Source of the DNA: Streptomonospora salina
GTDB taxonomy: Bacteria > Actinomycetota > Actinomycetes > Streptosporangiales > Streptosporangiaceae
Length of the DNA stretch: 64,000 bases
Assembly (NCBI RefSeq): GCF_014204715.1
Contig: NZ_JACHLY010000001.1
Coordinates: forward strand, 3,494,501-3,558,500
Reading direction: 5' to 3'
The notes beneath the pieces were generated by a model. The model saw nothing but the letters and a program-made list of their open reading frames with translations, did no database searches and had not been told where the DNA came from. Below are positions 47,585 to 53,215 of the stretch, one piece after another (position 1 is the first letter of the stretch; each line of letters opens with the position of its first letter). The position numbers were made by a program, and so were the translations under genes.

Positions 47585-48241
47585 ATGAGGTCCGATCCTT
47601 CGTGTCCACGCTGCGGGCGCGCCGTCCACGCACCGGGATTGTGGTCGAGTGCGTGGCAGTGCGGCGCTCACGGCCCTGTCGCACCGCTCAATCCGGTGCG
47701 CGCACCCAACGCGGCTTCACTGGAGCTGGTTCTCGCGTCCACCCGGGTGCCCGTCTGGCTTCCGTGGCCGCTGCCGACCGGCTGGCTGGTGACCGGTTTC
47801 GCCGATGCCGGCGACGATCGCAGCGGAGCGCTCGGCACCGCCGTCGCGCTCTCGGGACCGGCGCCGCTGGGCGGCGTCGGCGAGATGGCGCTGGTGGCCG
47901 AGGATCCCGGCATCGGCCTGGGCGCGCGGTTGGCCGGGCTCGACGGCCCCGACCCCGGCAGCGGGTTCGGCGCCGGACCGCCCGACTCCAAGCTCCGCTA
48001 CGACGGCCACGACATCGCGCTGTGGAGCGTCGAGACCGGGAGCGGGCGCGCGGCGTATGCCGGCGAGGCCTTCGCCGACTGGTTCTGGATCGTCTTCAGC
48101 GCCGCCGACACCGCCGTTCTCGTGGCCGAACTGGGCGACGTGCGCGACCTGCGCGACCGCCACGACGGCGGTGCGGCCCTGGAACCGCCCTTCGGCGCGC
48201 CCTCCCCGTTCCTCGCCTCGGCGTTGCAGCCCGCGTCCTGA
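47585..48241 (+). CDS. DUF6758-like zinc-ribbon protein
   Basis: 218 residues, ATG. The N-terminus is a short zinc ribbon ('CPRCGRAVHAPG' then 'WQCGAHGPVAP', Cys-x2-Cys and Cys/His). The rest is a soluble alpha/beta domain with 'VPVWLPWPLPTGWLVTGF' and 'DWFWIVFSAADTAVLVAELG'. Actinobacterial proteins of this layout (DUF6758) occur next to a PHP-domain gene, as here. Function unknown. A TATCTT box 10 nt before the ATG suggests a very short leader. Confidence 0.72.
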   Translation: MRSDPSCPRCGRAVHAPGLWSSAWQCGAHGPVAPLNPVRAPNAASLELVLASTRVPVWLPWPLPTGWLVTGFADAGDDRSGALGTAVALSGPAPLGGVGEMALVAEDPGIGLGARLAGLDGPDPGSGFGAGPPDSKLRYDGHDIALWSVETGSGRAAYAGEAFADWFWIVFSAADTAVLVAELGDVRDLRDRHDGGAALEPPFGAPSPFLASALQPAS

Positions 48242-48286: not shown

Positions 48287-49189
48287 ATGCGCATCGACTT
48301 GCACGCCCACAGCTCGGTCTCCGACGGCACCGAGCCGCCCGCCGACGTCGTCCGGCGCGCGGCGGCGGCCGGTCTGGACGTCCTCGCGCTGACCGACCAC
48401 GACACCGTCGCAGGCGTCCCCGAAGCGACCGCCGCCCTGCCCGCCGGGACCACCCTGGTCCCGGGCATGGAGCTGTCATGCCTGCACGAGGGCGCGAGCG
48501 TGCACCTGCTCGCCTACCTCTTCTCCGCCGATCACCCCGAACTCGCCGCCGAGCTGCGGCGGATCCGCGACGACCGCGCCGTCCGGGCCCGCACCATGGT
48601 CGAGCGCCTGCAGACCGCCGGCGTCGAGGTCGCGTGGGAGCGGGTCCGCGCGCTGGCGGGGGTCCCCGACACACCCGCCGCCGGCGAGACCGGGCAGGCC
48701 GGCGGGGCCGGCAGCAGCGTCGTCGGGCGCCCGCACATCGCACAGGCGATCGTCGAAGCGGGCGCGGCCGCCGACGTGCCCGAGGCCTTCGACCGCTGGA
48801 TCGGCGCGGGACGCCCCGGCTACGTCGCCCGCTACGCGCTCGACGCGCTGCGGGCGGTCGAGCTGGTGCGCGCCGCGGGCGGTGTCTGCGCCGTCGCCCA
48901 CCCCGCCCGCGGCGAGTCCGCCCCCGACGGAGCGGTGCCGATGCGGCTGATCGAGGAGATGGCCGAAGCCGGGCTCGGCGGCGTCGAAGCCGACCACCCG
49001 GCGCACGACGACGATGAGGCCGCCTACTGGCGCGGTGCGGCCAAGCGGCTCGAACTGGCGGTCACCGGCTCCAGCGACGACCACGGCGATCTGACCGGCC
49101 ACCGGCTCGGTTGCCGGACGACCGCCTTCGAGGAGTACGCTCGCCTGACCGAACCGGCGACCGGATCCGCGCCCGTCACCGCCGAATAG
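48287..49189 (+). CDS. PHP-domain phosphoesterase (RNase AM/TrpH-like)
   Basis: 300 residues, ATG. Metal-binding motifs of the PHP fold: 'DLHAHSSVSDGT', 'LALTDHDTVAGV', 'GMELSC', 'AVAHPARGE' and 'GSSDDHGD'. The layout matches TrpH/YciV, which removes nucleotides from 5' ends of RNA and hydrolyses 3',5'-bisphosphonucleotides. It binds three divalent metals. It follows the DUF6758 gene by 45 bp and is probably co-transcribed. Confidence 0.88.
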   Translation: MRIDLHAHSSVSDGTEPPADVVRRAAAAGLDVLALTDHDTVAGVPEATAALPAGTTLVPGMELSCLHEGASVHLLAYLFSADHPELAAELRRIRDDRAVRARTMVERLQTAGVEVAWERVRALAGVPDTPAAGETGQAGGAGSSVVGRPHIAQAIVEAGAAADVPEAFDRWIGAGRPGYVARYALDALRAVELVRAAGGVCAVAHPARGESAPDGAVPMRLIEEMAEAGLGGVEADHPAHDDDEAAYWRGAAKRLELAVTGSSDDHGDLTGHRLGCRTTAFEEYARLTEPATGSAPVTAE

Positions 49190-49356
49190 GGCGGGTCGAG
49201 CGGCGCGAATGCCGCGGCCGGGGGGCTTATCGGCGGTTTAGCCGCCGAACGGGACACTCGTCAGTCGCCTGGCCGGGTACCCGTACCGCCTGCGGGGCGG
49301 TGACAATGGTCCCGACAACCACCAGTGCTCGAAACGGACAGCGAAGGGTCGGCACC

Positions 49357-50340
49357 GTGTTCTGGAAGCGGAAGGGCAAGAAGAAGGACGGCGATGAGGC
49401 CGAGGGCTCCGGTGCGGAGTCGGCGGTGACGACCACGAGCACCGACACCGAGGACGCCGAAGCCGCCGGGAACGAGCGCGAGGAGGAGTCCGGCGCGGAC
49501 GCTGCGGAGAGCGCGGACGCCGCCGGGAAGGGCGGCGCCGACGCCGACGACGGCGAGCCCGCGACCACCGGGTCCGACGTCGCTGAGGCCGACGCCGACG
49601 AACACGACGACGACGGGGACGACGAGGAGTCCGCCCCGGCCGCGGCCCCGCAGAAGGGCGCGTTCGCCGACGACGGCGAGCCCGAGACCGCCGGCGCTTC
49701 GGAGGTCGACGACGAGGGCGTGCAGCGCCTGCGCTCCGTCGGCGTACTCAAGGCCGAAGACCAGGAGGTCGACGTCGTCAGCAACACCTGGATCGTCGAC
49801 GTCGACGACGAGGGCGTCGTGGTGATCGACCCGGCGCACGACGCCGAGGCCGTCATGGAAGCCGTGGGCGAGCGCGAGGTCTACCTCGTGGCCTGCACGA
49901 ACGGCTACAACACCCACATCGCCGCCGCCGTGGAGGTGGCCGAGCGCGACGAAGCCCCCGTCGCTCTGCACCGGCGCGAGGTCCGCGCCTGGCGGCGGGT
50001 GCACGGCGCCGAGCGCCGGCCCGACCTGGAGATCGAGGGCGGCGGCGCGCTCAAGGCCGGCGACGTCGAGATCGACATCCTGCCGATCCCCGGCACCTCC
50101 AACGGCAGCGTCGCCTTCTACATCTCCGAGAAGGGAGTCGTGTTCACCGGCGACTCCCTGCGCAAGGACGAGGTCGGCACCGTCGCGGGCGGCTACATCG
50201 ACTTCACCCAGCAGCTGCACTCCATCGGCGAGATGATCCTGACTCTGCCGCCGGACACCCGCGTGCTGGCGGACAGCGGCCCGGAGACGACGGTCGGCGA
50301 GGCGTCGGAGAACTTCGACAGCTGGGTCGCCACCAGGTAG
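49357..50340 (+). CDS. Metallo-beta-lactamase-fold protein lacking metal ligands, with acidic arm
   Basis: 327 residues from GTG 49357 (AAGGG 8 nt upstream). Residues 4-11 are a Lys/Arg cluster; about 12-115 are a highly acidic, Ala-rich disordered arm. The remainder follows the MBL fold: 'SNTWIVDVDDEGVVVIDPA', then 'VACTNGYNTHIAAAVEVAER' where THxHxDH is expected, 'IPGTSNGSVAFYISEKGVV' where TPGHTxGS is expected, and 'FTGDSLRKDEVG' with its Asp kept. At least four metal ligands are replaced, so hydrolase activity is unlikely. It may be a binding or regulatory pseudo-enzyme. Confidence 0.78.
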   Translation: MFWKRKGKKKDGDEAEGSGAESAVTTTSTDTEDAEAAGNEREEESGADAAESADAAGKGGADADDGEPATTGSDVAEADADEHDDDGDDEESAPAAAPQKGAFADDGEPETAGASEVDDEGVQRLRSVGVLKAEDQEVDVVSNTWIVDVDDEGVVVIDPAHDAEAVMEAVGEREVYLVACTNGYNTHIAAAVEVAERDEAPVALHRREVRAWRRVHGAERRPDLEIEGGGALKAGDVEIDILPIPGTSNGSVAFYISEKGVVFTGDSLRKDEVGTVAGGYIDFTQQLHSIGEMILTLPPDTRVLADSGPETTVGEASENFDSWVATR

Positions 50341-50538
50341 AGGACGTCCGAGACGGCGCACGTACCGGCGGGTCCGGGCTCGCGCCCGGCCCGCGGGTAC
50401 AGCGCCCGCCGCGGCCGGGCGGCCGGGCGCCGCCATAGCCGGGGACCGGGGGCCCGCGGTCGCTCGCGGCGGCGGGTCCCGCCGGAGATCCCGGCGTGCG
50501 CTCTGCGGCGGGGCGCTCGTTCGGCCGGTCGGGCGCCG

Positions 50539-51426
50539 CTACGCGCCGCCGCGCTCGTCGGCCTCGACCTGGTTCCAGAAGGCGGTCAGCGCTTCGGCCG
50601 TGGTCTCGGGCGCCTCGACGTTGGGGGAGTGGGCCGCCCCCGGGATGACGACCCGTTCGGCGGCCAGGTGGTCGGCCATCGCGGACTGGGCCTCGGGCGG
50701 CCAGGCGTCGTCGTTCTCGCCGTAGAGCACGAGCATGGGCAGCTCGGAGCGGGCCAGCTCGGGGGTGCGGTCGGCGGCGTCGAGCAGCTCCTCCGCCATG
50801 CGGACGAGCGCGTCGGGGTGGTTGGCGACCATGCGTTCACGCAGGAACGCGTGGATTTCGGGGGCGACGCCGCTGGCCCTGGTGGGGGCGTCGAAGTGTT
50901 CGGCCCAGATCTGCTCCAGGCGGTCACGCGTGCGCGTGTGGCCGATGGCCGCCACGAGCCTGCGGGCGTCGGCGGCACGGGTGCCGCCGATGGCCGAGGG
51001 GCCCGAGCTCATCAGGGTCGACGACAGCAGCGGAACCGTCGCCGAGATGACGGTTTCGCGGGTGACCAGCCCGCCGAAGGAGTGGCCCAGCAGGTGCACG
51101 GGGCCGTCGTCCAGTGTCAGTGCGACTTCGCCGACGATACGGCCCAGCCCGACGCGGGTGTACTCCCCGGGGTCGACGAAACCGGGGGACTGGTACTGCC
51201 CCGGCATGTCCACGGCCGTTACCGCGCGCCCCGCCGACGCCAGCGTCTGCAGTAGCGCGATGAAGTCCTCTTTGCTGCCGGTGTAGCCGGGCACCAGCAG
51301 CGCCGGTTGCCGTTCGCAGCCGCCGGCGGCCGGAGTGGCCTGCAGGGCGGCGACGTCGCCCATAGGGGTGCGGATGGTGGTGTGCCGGACACCGGGCGGC
51401 AGGCCCAGGAATCGAGGAGTACTCAC
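50539..51426 (-). CDS. Alpha/beta hydrolase
   Basis: 295 residues from GTG 51426. Catalytic elements: 'LLVPGYTGSKEDF' oxyanion loop, nucleophile 'LLGHSFGGLV', Asp in 'LYGENDDAWP', His in 'IPGAAHSPNVEAP'. No signal peptide, so cytoplasmic. Substrate unknown; related proteins are esterases, haloperoxidase-like or meta-cleavage hydrolases. A TATAGT box (51440-51435, minus) is 8 nt before the start and no ribosome site is seen, suggesting a leaderless message. It sits after the DEAD-box helicase on the same strand with 214 bp between. Confidence 0.87.
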   Translation of the reverse strand: MSTPRFLGLPPGVRHTTIRTPMGDVAALQATPAAGGCERQPALLVPGYTGSKEDFIALLQTLASAGRAVTAVDMPGQYQSPGFVDPGEYTRVGLGRIVGEVALTLDDGPVHLLGHSFGGLVTRETVISATVPLLSSTLMSSGPSAIGGTRAADARRLVAAIGHTRTRDRLEQIWAEHFDAPTRASGVAPEIHAFLRERMVANHPDALVRMAEELLDAADRTPELARSELPMLVLYGENDDAWPPEAQSAMADHLAAERVVIPGAAHSPNVEAPETTAEALTAFWNQVEADERGGA

Positions 51427-51640: not shown

Positions 51641-53215
51641 TTAGCGGTCCTGGTCCTTGCCGGGCTGCTCGACACCGCTGCGGGTGCGCCGCCGGCGGCG
51701 CCGCCGGGGAGCGGGCGACTCGCCCGACCCGCCGCTCTGGGCCTGGGCCGCGGCACCGGAGCCGGTGTCGGCGCCGGCAGTGTCGCCGGAGGATCCCTTG
51801 GTCGCCGTACCTCCGCCGGTCGAACTGCGGGTGCGCCGGCGGTTGCGGGAGCGTCCGCTCTTGGCGCCGCCCTCTTCGCGTCCGCCCTTGCCGGCGCCCT
51901 TGCCGCCCTTGCCGCTGCGCTCGCCCCGCTGCCCGGTGTCGCCGATGTCTTCGACTTCCTCGGCCTCCAGACCTGCGCGCTTACGCAGATCGGCCGCCAG
52001 CCGCCCCTTGCTGCCCGCCGGGATCCCCATCTCCTCGAAGAAGTGCGGGGAGGTGGAGTAGGTCTCGGCGGGGTCGGAGTGGGCCAGCTCCAGTGCGGTG
52101 TTGATCAGCTTCCACCGCGCGACCTCCTGCCAACTGATGAAGGTCACCGCGGTGCCCGAACGCCCGGCCCGGCCGGTGCGGCCGGTGCGGTGGGTGTAGG
52201 TCTTCTCGTCGTCGGGGCACTCGTAGTTGACCACGTGGGTGACGTCGTCGACGTCGAGGCCGCGTGCGGCGACGTCGGTGGCCACGAGCACGTCGATCTT
52301 GCCGCCGCGGAACGCCCGCAGGGCGCGTTCGCGCTGGCTCTGGCCGAGGTCGCCGTGCACGGCGGCGGCCGCGAAACCGCGGTCCTTGAGGTCGGCGGCG
52401 ACCTTGTCGCAGGCCCGCTTGGTCTGGCAGAAGACCATGGTCAGTCCGCGCCCCTCGGCCTGGAGCAGGCGTCCGAGCATCTCGGGCTTGTCCATGGGGT
52501 GGGTGCGGAAGACGTGCTGGTCGACGTGGCTGATACGGGCCTGGCTGGGATCGTCGTCGTCGCCGGCGCGCACGTGTGTGGGCTGGCGAAGGTAGTTGCG
52601 CGACAGGGAGACGATCTCGCTCGGCATGGTGGCCGAGAACAGCATCACCTGGCGCTCGTCGGGGATCTTGGTGAGGATCTTCTTGATGTCGGGCAGGAAG
52701 CCGAGGTCGAGCATCTTGTCGGCCTCGTCCAGCACGACCGCCGACACGTCGCGCAGGTTCAGGTGCTTCTGATTCTCCAGGTCGAGCAACCGCCCGGGGG
52801 TTCCCACGACGACGTCGACGCCGTCCTTGAGCCCTTCGATCTGCGGCTCATAGGCGCGGCCGCCGTAGACGGTGACGATCCGTGCTCCGATGCGCTTGCC
52901 GGCCGTGCTGAGGTCGGCGGCGACCTGGATGGCGAGTTCGCGGGTCGGGACGACCACCAGCGCTCCCGGGCGCTTCGCCGATCCCGGCACCTGCTGCACG
53001 CGCTGCAGCAGCGGCAGCCCGAACGCGAGCGTCTTGCCGGTGCCGGTGCGGGCCTGGCCGATGATGTCGGAGGCGGAAAGGGCGAGCGGGAGGGCGAGGG
53101 TCTGGATGGGGAACGGTTCGACGATGCCTTCGGCTTCGAGTGCGTCGGCGATGTCGGGGGCGACACCGAGTCCGCGGAAGGTTCGTCGTTCTTCGTTGAT
53201 TTCTGCGCTTGTCAG
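51641..53215 (-). CDS. DEAD-box RNA helicase (RhlE/RhlB-like), apparent CTG start
   Basis: 524 residues if translation starts at CTG 53215. GGAGG lies 8 nt before that CTG, and the frame from there encodes all helicase motifs: Q motif 'EPFPIQTLALPLA', Walker A 'ARTGTGKTLAF', 'PTRELA', 'TPGRLL', 'DEAD' in 'VVLDEADKMLD', 'SAT', and 'HRTGRTGRAG'. No ATG, GTG or TTG exists in frame before GTG 52999, which would remove motif I. The C-terminus is a Lys/Arg/Gly/Ser-rich tail typical of RNA-binding helicases. Function: RNA unwinding in ribosome assembly or RNA decay, often cold-induced. Confidence 0.9.
   Translation of the reverse strand: MTSAEINEERRTFRGLGVAPDIADALEAEGIVEPFPIQTLALPLALSASDIIGQARTGTGKTLAFGLPLLQRVQQVPGSAKRPGALVVVPTRELAIQVAADLSTAGKRIGARIVTVYGGRAYEPQIEGLKDGVDVVVGTPGRLLDLENQKHLNLRDVSAVVLDEADKMLDLGFLPDIKKILTKIPDERQVMLFSATMPSEIVSLSRNYLRQPTHVRAGDDDDPSQARISHVDQHVFRTHPMDKPEMLGRLLQAEGRGLTMVFCQTKRACDKVAADLKDRGFAAAAVHGDLGQSQRERALRAFRGGKIDVLVATDVAARGLDVDDVTHVVNYECPDDEKTYTHRTGRTGRAGRSGTAVTFISWQEVARWKLINTALELAHSDPAETYSTSPHFFEEMGIPAGSKGRLAADLRKRAGLEAEEVEDIGDTGQRGERSGKGGKGAGKGGREEGGAKSGRSRNRRRTRSSTGGGTATKGSSGDTAGADTGSGAAAQAQSGGSGESPAPRRRRRRRTRSGVEQPGKDQDR

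Follow-up and report, generated by a model that had tools for sequence, protein, structure and literature searches.

A metallo-beta-lactamase-fold protein with an erased metal site, and a candidate family of bacterial pseudoenzymes, in the Streptosporangiales

The HxHxDH motif is called a hallmark of the metallo-beta-lactamase (MBL) superfamily in the cited part of one paper (PMC7785958). In the sections cited of two others (PMC7980224, PMC4819959), the MBL-fold pseudoenzymes described are eukaryotic RNA-processing subunits: INTS9 and CPSF100, MBL/beta-CASP proteins that are paired with active partners. PqsE of Pseudomonas aeruginosa is a bacterial MBL-fold protein whose binding of RhlR is, in the passages cited, separable from catalysis (PMC9715718, PMC12077149); its HXHXDH is retained across the 300 orthologs of one alignment (PMC12077149). 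A search of open-licence papers found no report of a bacterial MBL pseudoenzyme family of the kind described below.

The window analysed here is a stretch of 64,000 nucleotides from the genome of Streptomonospora salina. One of its open reading frames encodes an MBL-fold protein with the following features:

49357..50340, plus strand: metal-site-erased MBL-fold protein of 327 residues (open reading frame; PF00753, 50.8 bits; AlphaFold pLDDT 95.6 for residues 122-327)
49357..49392, plus strand: basic/aromatic leader, residues 1-12 (FWKRKGKKK), with six K/R of 12
49393..49710, plus strand: acidic low-complexity arm, residues 13-118, with 37 D/E of 106 and pLDDT below 50 over most of its length
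49711..50337, plus strand: MBL-fold domain, residues 119-327 (Pfam, AlphaFold, structure alignments)
49894..49917, plus strand: CTNGYNTH (C180-H187) at the expected HxHxDH; by alignment H1 is N182, H2 is Y184, D3 is T186 and H4 is kept as H187
49993..49995, plus strand: R213, near-specific to the family of syntenic orthologs
50095..50097, plus strand: T247 in place of the TPGH histidine (H5), by alignment
50152..50154, plus strand: D266, retained by alignment as the bridging Asp in the GD loop
50212..50229, plus strand: Q286-G291, QLHSIG, signature of the same family
50275..50277, plus strand: S307 in place of the final ligand His (H7), by alignment

The frame starts at a GTG codon, and an AAGGG stretch a few bases 5' of it supports this start. 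Scanning 49150-50600 for promoters and terminators gave no match, such scans being uninformative for a high-GC actinomycete. The PF00753 (Lactamase_B) score stands against a cut-off of 22.7 bits, and a model of the domain by itself (residues 122-327) reaches a pTM of 0.92. In VIA-align comparisons this model matches BLEG-1 (7ev5) with a Z of 27.1 and YcbL (2xf4) with a Z of 26.6, over 192 residues each, and Staphylococcus aureus GloB (7l0b) with a Z of 25.4; scores of 20-27 across the 50 solved entries among the matches listed place it in the MBL fold. These three are also the nearest solved folds by Foldseek, and the sequence profile agrees. Lactamase_B is the sole Pfam family in the protein at E up to 1, and no beta-CASP domain was found in that scan. 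The NCBIfam matches all lie below threshold; that to TIGR03413 (GSH_gloB) scores 44.9 bits, against the 200.8 expected of a GloB equivalog. The protein has the fold of the YcbL/GloB hydrolases and BLEG-1 over the full domain, and they are its nearest solved sequences, but five of the seven ligand positions are replaced. The three structures themselves are presumed to carry the full ligand set.

Ligand positions were numbered by alignment with an intact paralog from the same genome, L002, which reads HHDHHDH. The seven positions in the S. salina protein are N182, Y184, T186, H187, T247, D266 and S307: four His have become N182, Y184, T247 and S307, one Asp has become T186, and H187 and D266 are retained. 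The protein thus has neither the HxHxDH hallmark nor the dinuclear ligand set. There are 16 places with PF00753 in this genome, 11 of them with HxHxDH and four with a partial motif (HYH, HGDSDH, HIHNDY, HGHNDY); only the protein at 49357-50340 lacks the first as well as the second His. The preliminary description of this DNA had given correct coordinates for the frame, and its account of an MBL fold with CTNGYNTH at the THxHxDH site, Thr for the TPGH His, a surviving GD loop and an acidic arm of about 100 residues ahead of the fold is confirmed throughout. Its figure of at least four missing ligands was right but understated the loss.

The gene lies in a conserved neighbourhood, referred to here as its ‘slot’, which in the window comprises:

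47585..48241, plus strand: DUF6758 protein, upstream neighbour (PF20544, 294 bits)
48287..49189, plus strand: PHP-domain neighbour (PF02811; synteny)
50539..51426, minus strand: alpha/beta hydrolase, downstream neighbour (PF12697; synteny)
51641..52999, minus strand: DEAD-box helicase-like neighbour (from a visible VLDEAD motif, not a family search; synteny)

The PHP protein scores best as a 3',5'-nucleoside bisphosphate phosphatase, at 181 bits where the cut-off is 400. DUF6758 is simply listed in the cited part of one paper (PMC13118837). Counting the paralog, relatives of the MBL protein are present in 57 of 60 related genomes at E up to 1e-3 and in 293 of the 297 genomes of the order at E up to 1e-30; with an intact in-slot relative, L031, as query the latter count is 295 of 297 (E up to 1e-40, again including the paralog). 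Genomes of genus g55 often have three relatives, and genome G149 has five. The best 80 loci of the named-genome scan divide into 71 of the syntenic ‘slot family’ and nine of the paralog type; neighbours were checked at these 71 and at some unnamed loci, the remainder being assigned by tree or similarity. DUF6758 is found at 67 of the 71. At one of the other four (L109) the contig has 111 bases ahead of the match, and at L063, L083 and L095 there was no DUF6758 match.

In Nocardiopsis and Thermobifida the order is DUF6758, PHP, MBL, alpha/beta hydrolase (reverse), DEAD helicase (reverse) and a MiaE-like gene. Actinomadura retains DUF6758-PHP-MBL, and Nonomuraea, Herbidospora, Planotetraspora and their relatives have no PHP match within the fetched stretch. 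Gene order and protein are also of the Nocardiopsis type (63% identity, NYPHTDR) in a record titled Glycomyces fuscus, which may be mislabelled. The core match starts 13-68 nt past the PHP stop at ten Actinomadura loci and 23 nt past the DUF6758 stop at five Herbidospora loci, spacings of the kind found within operons. In the window, 167 bases separate the PHP stop from the GTG.

Across the class, 95 of 148 genomes have DUF6758. Among 35 DUF6758 loci that were fetched, 34 came from families other than that of S. salina. Seven MBL queries gave no match (E up to 1e-3) in any of the 34, of which at least four are truncated by a contig end or by the limits of the fetched stretch; the search for a hidden MBL gene also included reading by eye the open frames in seven gaps. 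Both the PHP and the alpha/beta hydrolase genes are present at 13 of these other-family loci, none with an MBL gene, and in 11 of the 13 (not in L174 or L182) MarC (PF01914) lies between the two. MarC occurs in 22 of the 35 fetched loci, and at 12 of the 71 slot loci it lies upstream of the MBL gene, including an intact one (L069). Since the DUF6758 loci of other families gave no MBL match, it appears, as far as sampled, that the gene joined the locus in the Streptosporangiales and that the syntenic family is confined to this order. Outside the order, DUF6758-PHP-MarC (L162-L196) looks like a conserved actinomycete unit.

The state of the metal site was compared across 172 sequences, 156 of them distinct: 137 of the slot family, 17 paralogs and two proteins from f3 genomes. 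The 137 were drawn from the best matches to the S. salina protein, to alignment A1 and to L031, and their clade proportions are not a census. At least one ligand is lost in 135 of the 137 and at least four in 87; by number of changed ligands there are two sequences with none, 14 with one, 34 with three, 34 with four, 49 with five and four with all seven. All 17 paralogs and both f3 proteins are intact. The f3 genomes (L024, L025, L197, L198) hold an intact MBL gene of the same branch, with no DUF6758 or PHP match in the fetched stretch.

The losses take distinct forms in clades that are named here from the genera in record titles, combined with a taxonomy that we assume. The Nocardiopsaceae type, the clade of the S. 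salina protein, is mainly NYTHTDS or NYPHTDR: all 41 sequences retain H187 and D266, N182 and Y184 are 98% conserved, and the D3 and H7 positions drift, with commonest residues at 51% and 46%. The Streptosporangiaceae type (40 sequences) is mainly HLDHVKH, with D3, H4 and H7 kept in 97-100% and D6, the bridging Asp, mostly replaced by Lys. Actinomadura-type proteins read DNH(H/R/K)HDQ (for example DNHHHDQ), with relatives down to NRNIFGS, and a clade mostly of metagenome assemblies reads HH(G/R/A/T)HHDH. HLDHHDH, NYDHADH and SVDHSDH occur as single forms. The lost sites can be disjoint: D3 in the metagenome clade as against H2, H5 and D6 in the Streptosporangiaceae type. The assemblies behind the intact in-slot members are fragmentary or metagenomic: one member (L031) lies on a 3,360-base contig with DUF6758 just upstream, and the other (L021/L069) is from a metagenome assembly.

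How often the site was lost was read from a tree of 78 rows built without the seven ligand columns and rooted on the paralog. Rows were thinned by identity to 93 for a first tree and to these 78 for the second, after removal of the duplicate loci L065, L095, L199 and L200 before the first and of L240 as well before the second. The branching order runs from the intact f3 proteins through L020 and a Thermomonosporaceae-type clade, in which the intact L031 is basal, to the Nocardiopsaceae type and a pair in which the Streptosporangiaceae type is joined with the metagenome clade, whose basal member is the intact L021. In tests of clades that were named only after the first tree had been seen, a single clade of all losers is rejected (p-AU 1e-27), as is a clade of the Nocardiopsaceae type, the Streptosporangiaceae type and the D3-losers (p 6e-4); for one loser clade of the Nocardiopsaceae and Streptosporangiaceae types the test gives no rejection (p 0.41). 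Support is not strong (99/68) where the Streptosporangiaceae type joins the D3-losers. The basal sequences of the Nocardiopsaceae and Streptosporangiaceae types, L018 (NYDHADH) and L019 (HYDHAKH), have the same Y and A at the same sites, so the two types may go back to a single loss. With full regain ruled out, the tree implies at least four separate losses (in L020, in the Thermomonosporaceae type after L031, in the metagenome clade after L021, and in the Nocardiopsaceae with the Streptosporangiaceae types), and five on the best tree. Unordered parsimony costs only three changes, by way of one loss and two full regains, and repeated loss therefore rests on excluding regain.

By the Nei-Gojobori method, dN/dS is 0.054-0.369 in 17 slot-family pairs, which shows that these proteins are under purifying selection; three intact pairs from outside the slot give 0.116, 0.174 and 0.211. 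Absence of the catalytic residues combined with purifying selection is one mark of a pseudoenzyme, and the slot family shows it. The family also has constant residues of its own. Q286 is present in 136 of 137 slot-family sequences, the exception being L020 with Leu, and G291 in 135 of 137; the two positions are I and R in all 17 paralogs and I and S in f3. R213 is found in 136 of 137 slot-family sequences and is Glu in both f3 proteins; since one paralog of the 17 (L207) also has Arg here, this residue is no longer regarded as strictly slot-specific. Both intact in-slot proteins, L031 and L021, already carry Q286, G291 and R213. The signature thus preceded metal loss, and this sequence is the main ground for proposing a role that made catalysis expendable. 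In the model Q286 and G291 are on helix 283-294. The signature residues may form an interface, though they could instead be structural.

The reading we favour, and consider rather likely, is that the gene encodes a bacterial pseudoenzyme with the MBL fold. A hydrolase in origin, it would have been recruited for non-catalytic binding, after which its metal site became expendable; the S. salina protein itself would probably serve as an adaptor or sensor that carries no metal. A YcbL/GloB-type gene would have entered the DUF6758 locus in the Streptosporangiales, and binding would have been the first new function of the family, perhaps through the face with Q286, G291 and R213. The partner would most likely be a product of the same gene cluster, of which DUF6758 is the most constant upstream neighbour. 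With catalysis thereby expendable, the dinuclear site would have decayed separately in several clades. A protein with a non-catalytic role in binding or regulation is expected to show a retained fold, a missing site, purifying selection and synteny; such a role had been suggested in the preliminary description, and the order-wide syntenic orthologs now add to its support. For the family as a whole, the chances seem about even that the binding role was fixed before metal loss and that each clade dismantled the site by its own route. In this same reading, a single slot would hold a natural series from a full dinuclear site to none, with the new function traceable through the constants Q286-G291 and, nearly always, R213.

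That the proteins are still enzymes, through a relocated or single metal or through metal-free catalysis by H187, D266 and neighbouring polar residues, is unlikely. The complete retention of H187 and D266 in the Nocardiopsaceae type speaks for it, as do the conserved D3, H4 and H7 of the Streptosporangiaceae type and the 14 sequences that are just one ligand short, which may still bind one metal. However, no retained ligand is common to all clades: the H187 site is K or R in some Actinomadura-type proteins, and four sequences have lost all seven ligands. C180, moreover, is Leu in many Actinomadura. More doubtful still is a pairing with the intact paralog, in which the slot protein would be the inactive member of a heterodimer in the style of INTS9/INTS11 or CPSF100/CPSF73. 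There is precedent in INTS9, where HxHxDH has become NYHC and the partner INTS11 is active (PMC7980224, in the section cited), and the S. salina genome does hold an intact paralog. But the slot and paralog genes lie far apart in it, and two genomes, G132 and G140 (each 97% complete), have the slot protein and no paralog-like match: their next best matches have 34-36% identity and E of 1e-21 to 1e-22, when paralogs give 7e-66 or better with the same query. These two genomes set the heterodimer back as a main reading.

The drift at D3 and H7 in the Nocardiopsaceae type is what a functionless, decaying gene might show, but dN/dS below 0.4 in all 17 pairs, open frames and synteny retained across the order, and the near-invariance of N182 and Y184 in that same type refute decay and leave it very improbable. 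The chance that the motif is a sequencing or assembly error, or that an intact motif has been misaligned, is practically negligible. The preliminary description had named two findings that would undo its claim, a true HxHxDH elsewhere in the protein and intact orthologs pointing to a sequencing error. No HxHxD motif occurs in the matched stretch, and error is refuted because CTNGYNTH is shared by all five congeners searched, making six genomes of the genus with S. salina itself. It had also raised whether all close orthologs lack the ligands: the congeners do, and intact in-slot orthologs (L031, L021/L069) exist but are distant, at about 45-50% identity in the domain.

If the co-opted binding protein is the right reading, the slot family would work like INTS9, CPSF100 and PqsE and yet be a member of none of these groups. 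Like INTS9 and CPSF100, the S. salina protein keeps the MBL fold and has lost HxHxDH; unlike them, it is bacterial and not known to be part of a nuclease complex, no beta-CASP domain was found, and the ligands have been lost repeatedly within one ortholog family. From PqsE it differs in lacking an intact HXHXDH. The paralog type (L002, 38% identity) is its sister group in the tree and, unlike the slot family, is uniformly intact, with Q286 and G291 absent from all 17 sequences and no DUF6758 neighbour at the nine named loci. A role for the paralog as a mycothiol-pathway hydrolase beside its dehydrogenase was considered and dropped for the S. salina genome; the neighbours of L002, read from sequence, resemble a histidine kinase and a PurE-like protein.

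Such a family would give the common MBL fold a second, non-enzyme job. Intact, one-ligand-short and fully erased orthologs in one locus would also make a general question about pseudoenzymes testable, namely whether the new role comes before or after the loss of catalysis. The usual automatic label, ‘MBL fold metallo-hydrolase’, would mislead for these genes.

In the full-length model the first 110 residues, averaged in blocks of ten, have pLDDT values of 42-55; helices and strands are absent ahead of residue 113, and the arm is predicted to be disordered. FWKRK stands at the matching start in eight Nocardiopsaceae-type rows, with the variant FWKKK in L063; in the remaining rows of this type the stretch compared is short of the start or the motif is not shown. 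In the S. salina genome the start pattern of the leader occurs at a single place. Among 51 rows with an upstream stretch, long acidic arms of variable length are found in the Nocardiopsaceae type and in the distant intact f3 protein L024, and Streptosporangiaceae-type rows begin near the fold. The arm is thus a feature of the Nocardiopsaceae type and not of the whole slot family. This type would have added the leader and a long acidic tether, plausibly holding the protein at the membrane or at a basic partner; a membrane tether would be analogous to the N-terminal region of FtsY. The f3 proteins differ from each other, L024 having a basic-acidic arm and L025 none. Three Actinomadura-type proteins (L208, L209, L212) have acidic low-complexity inserts within the MBL fold, a second route to acidic stretches.
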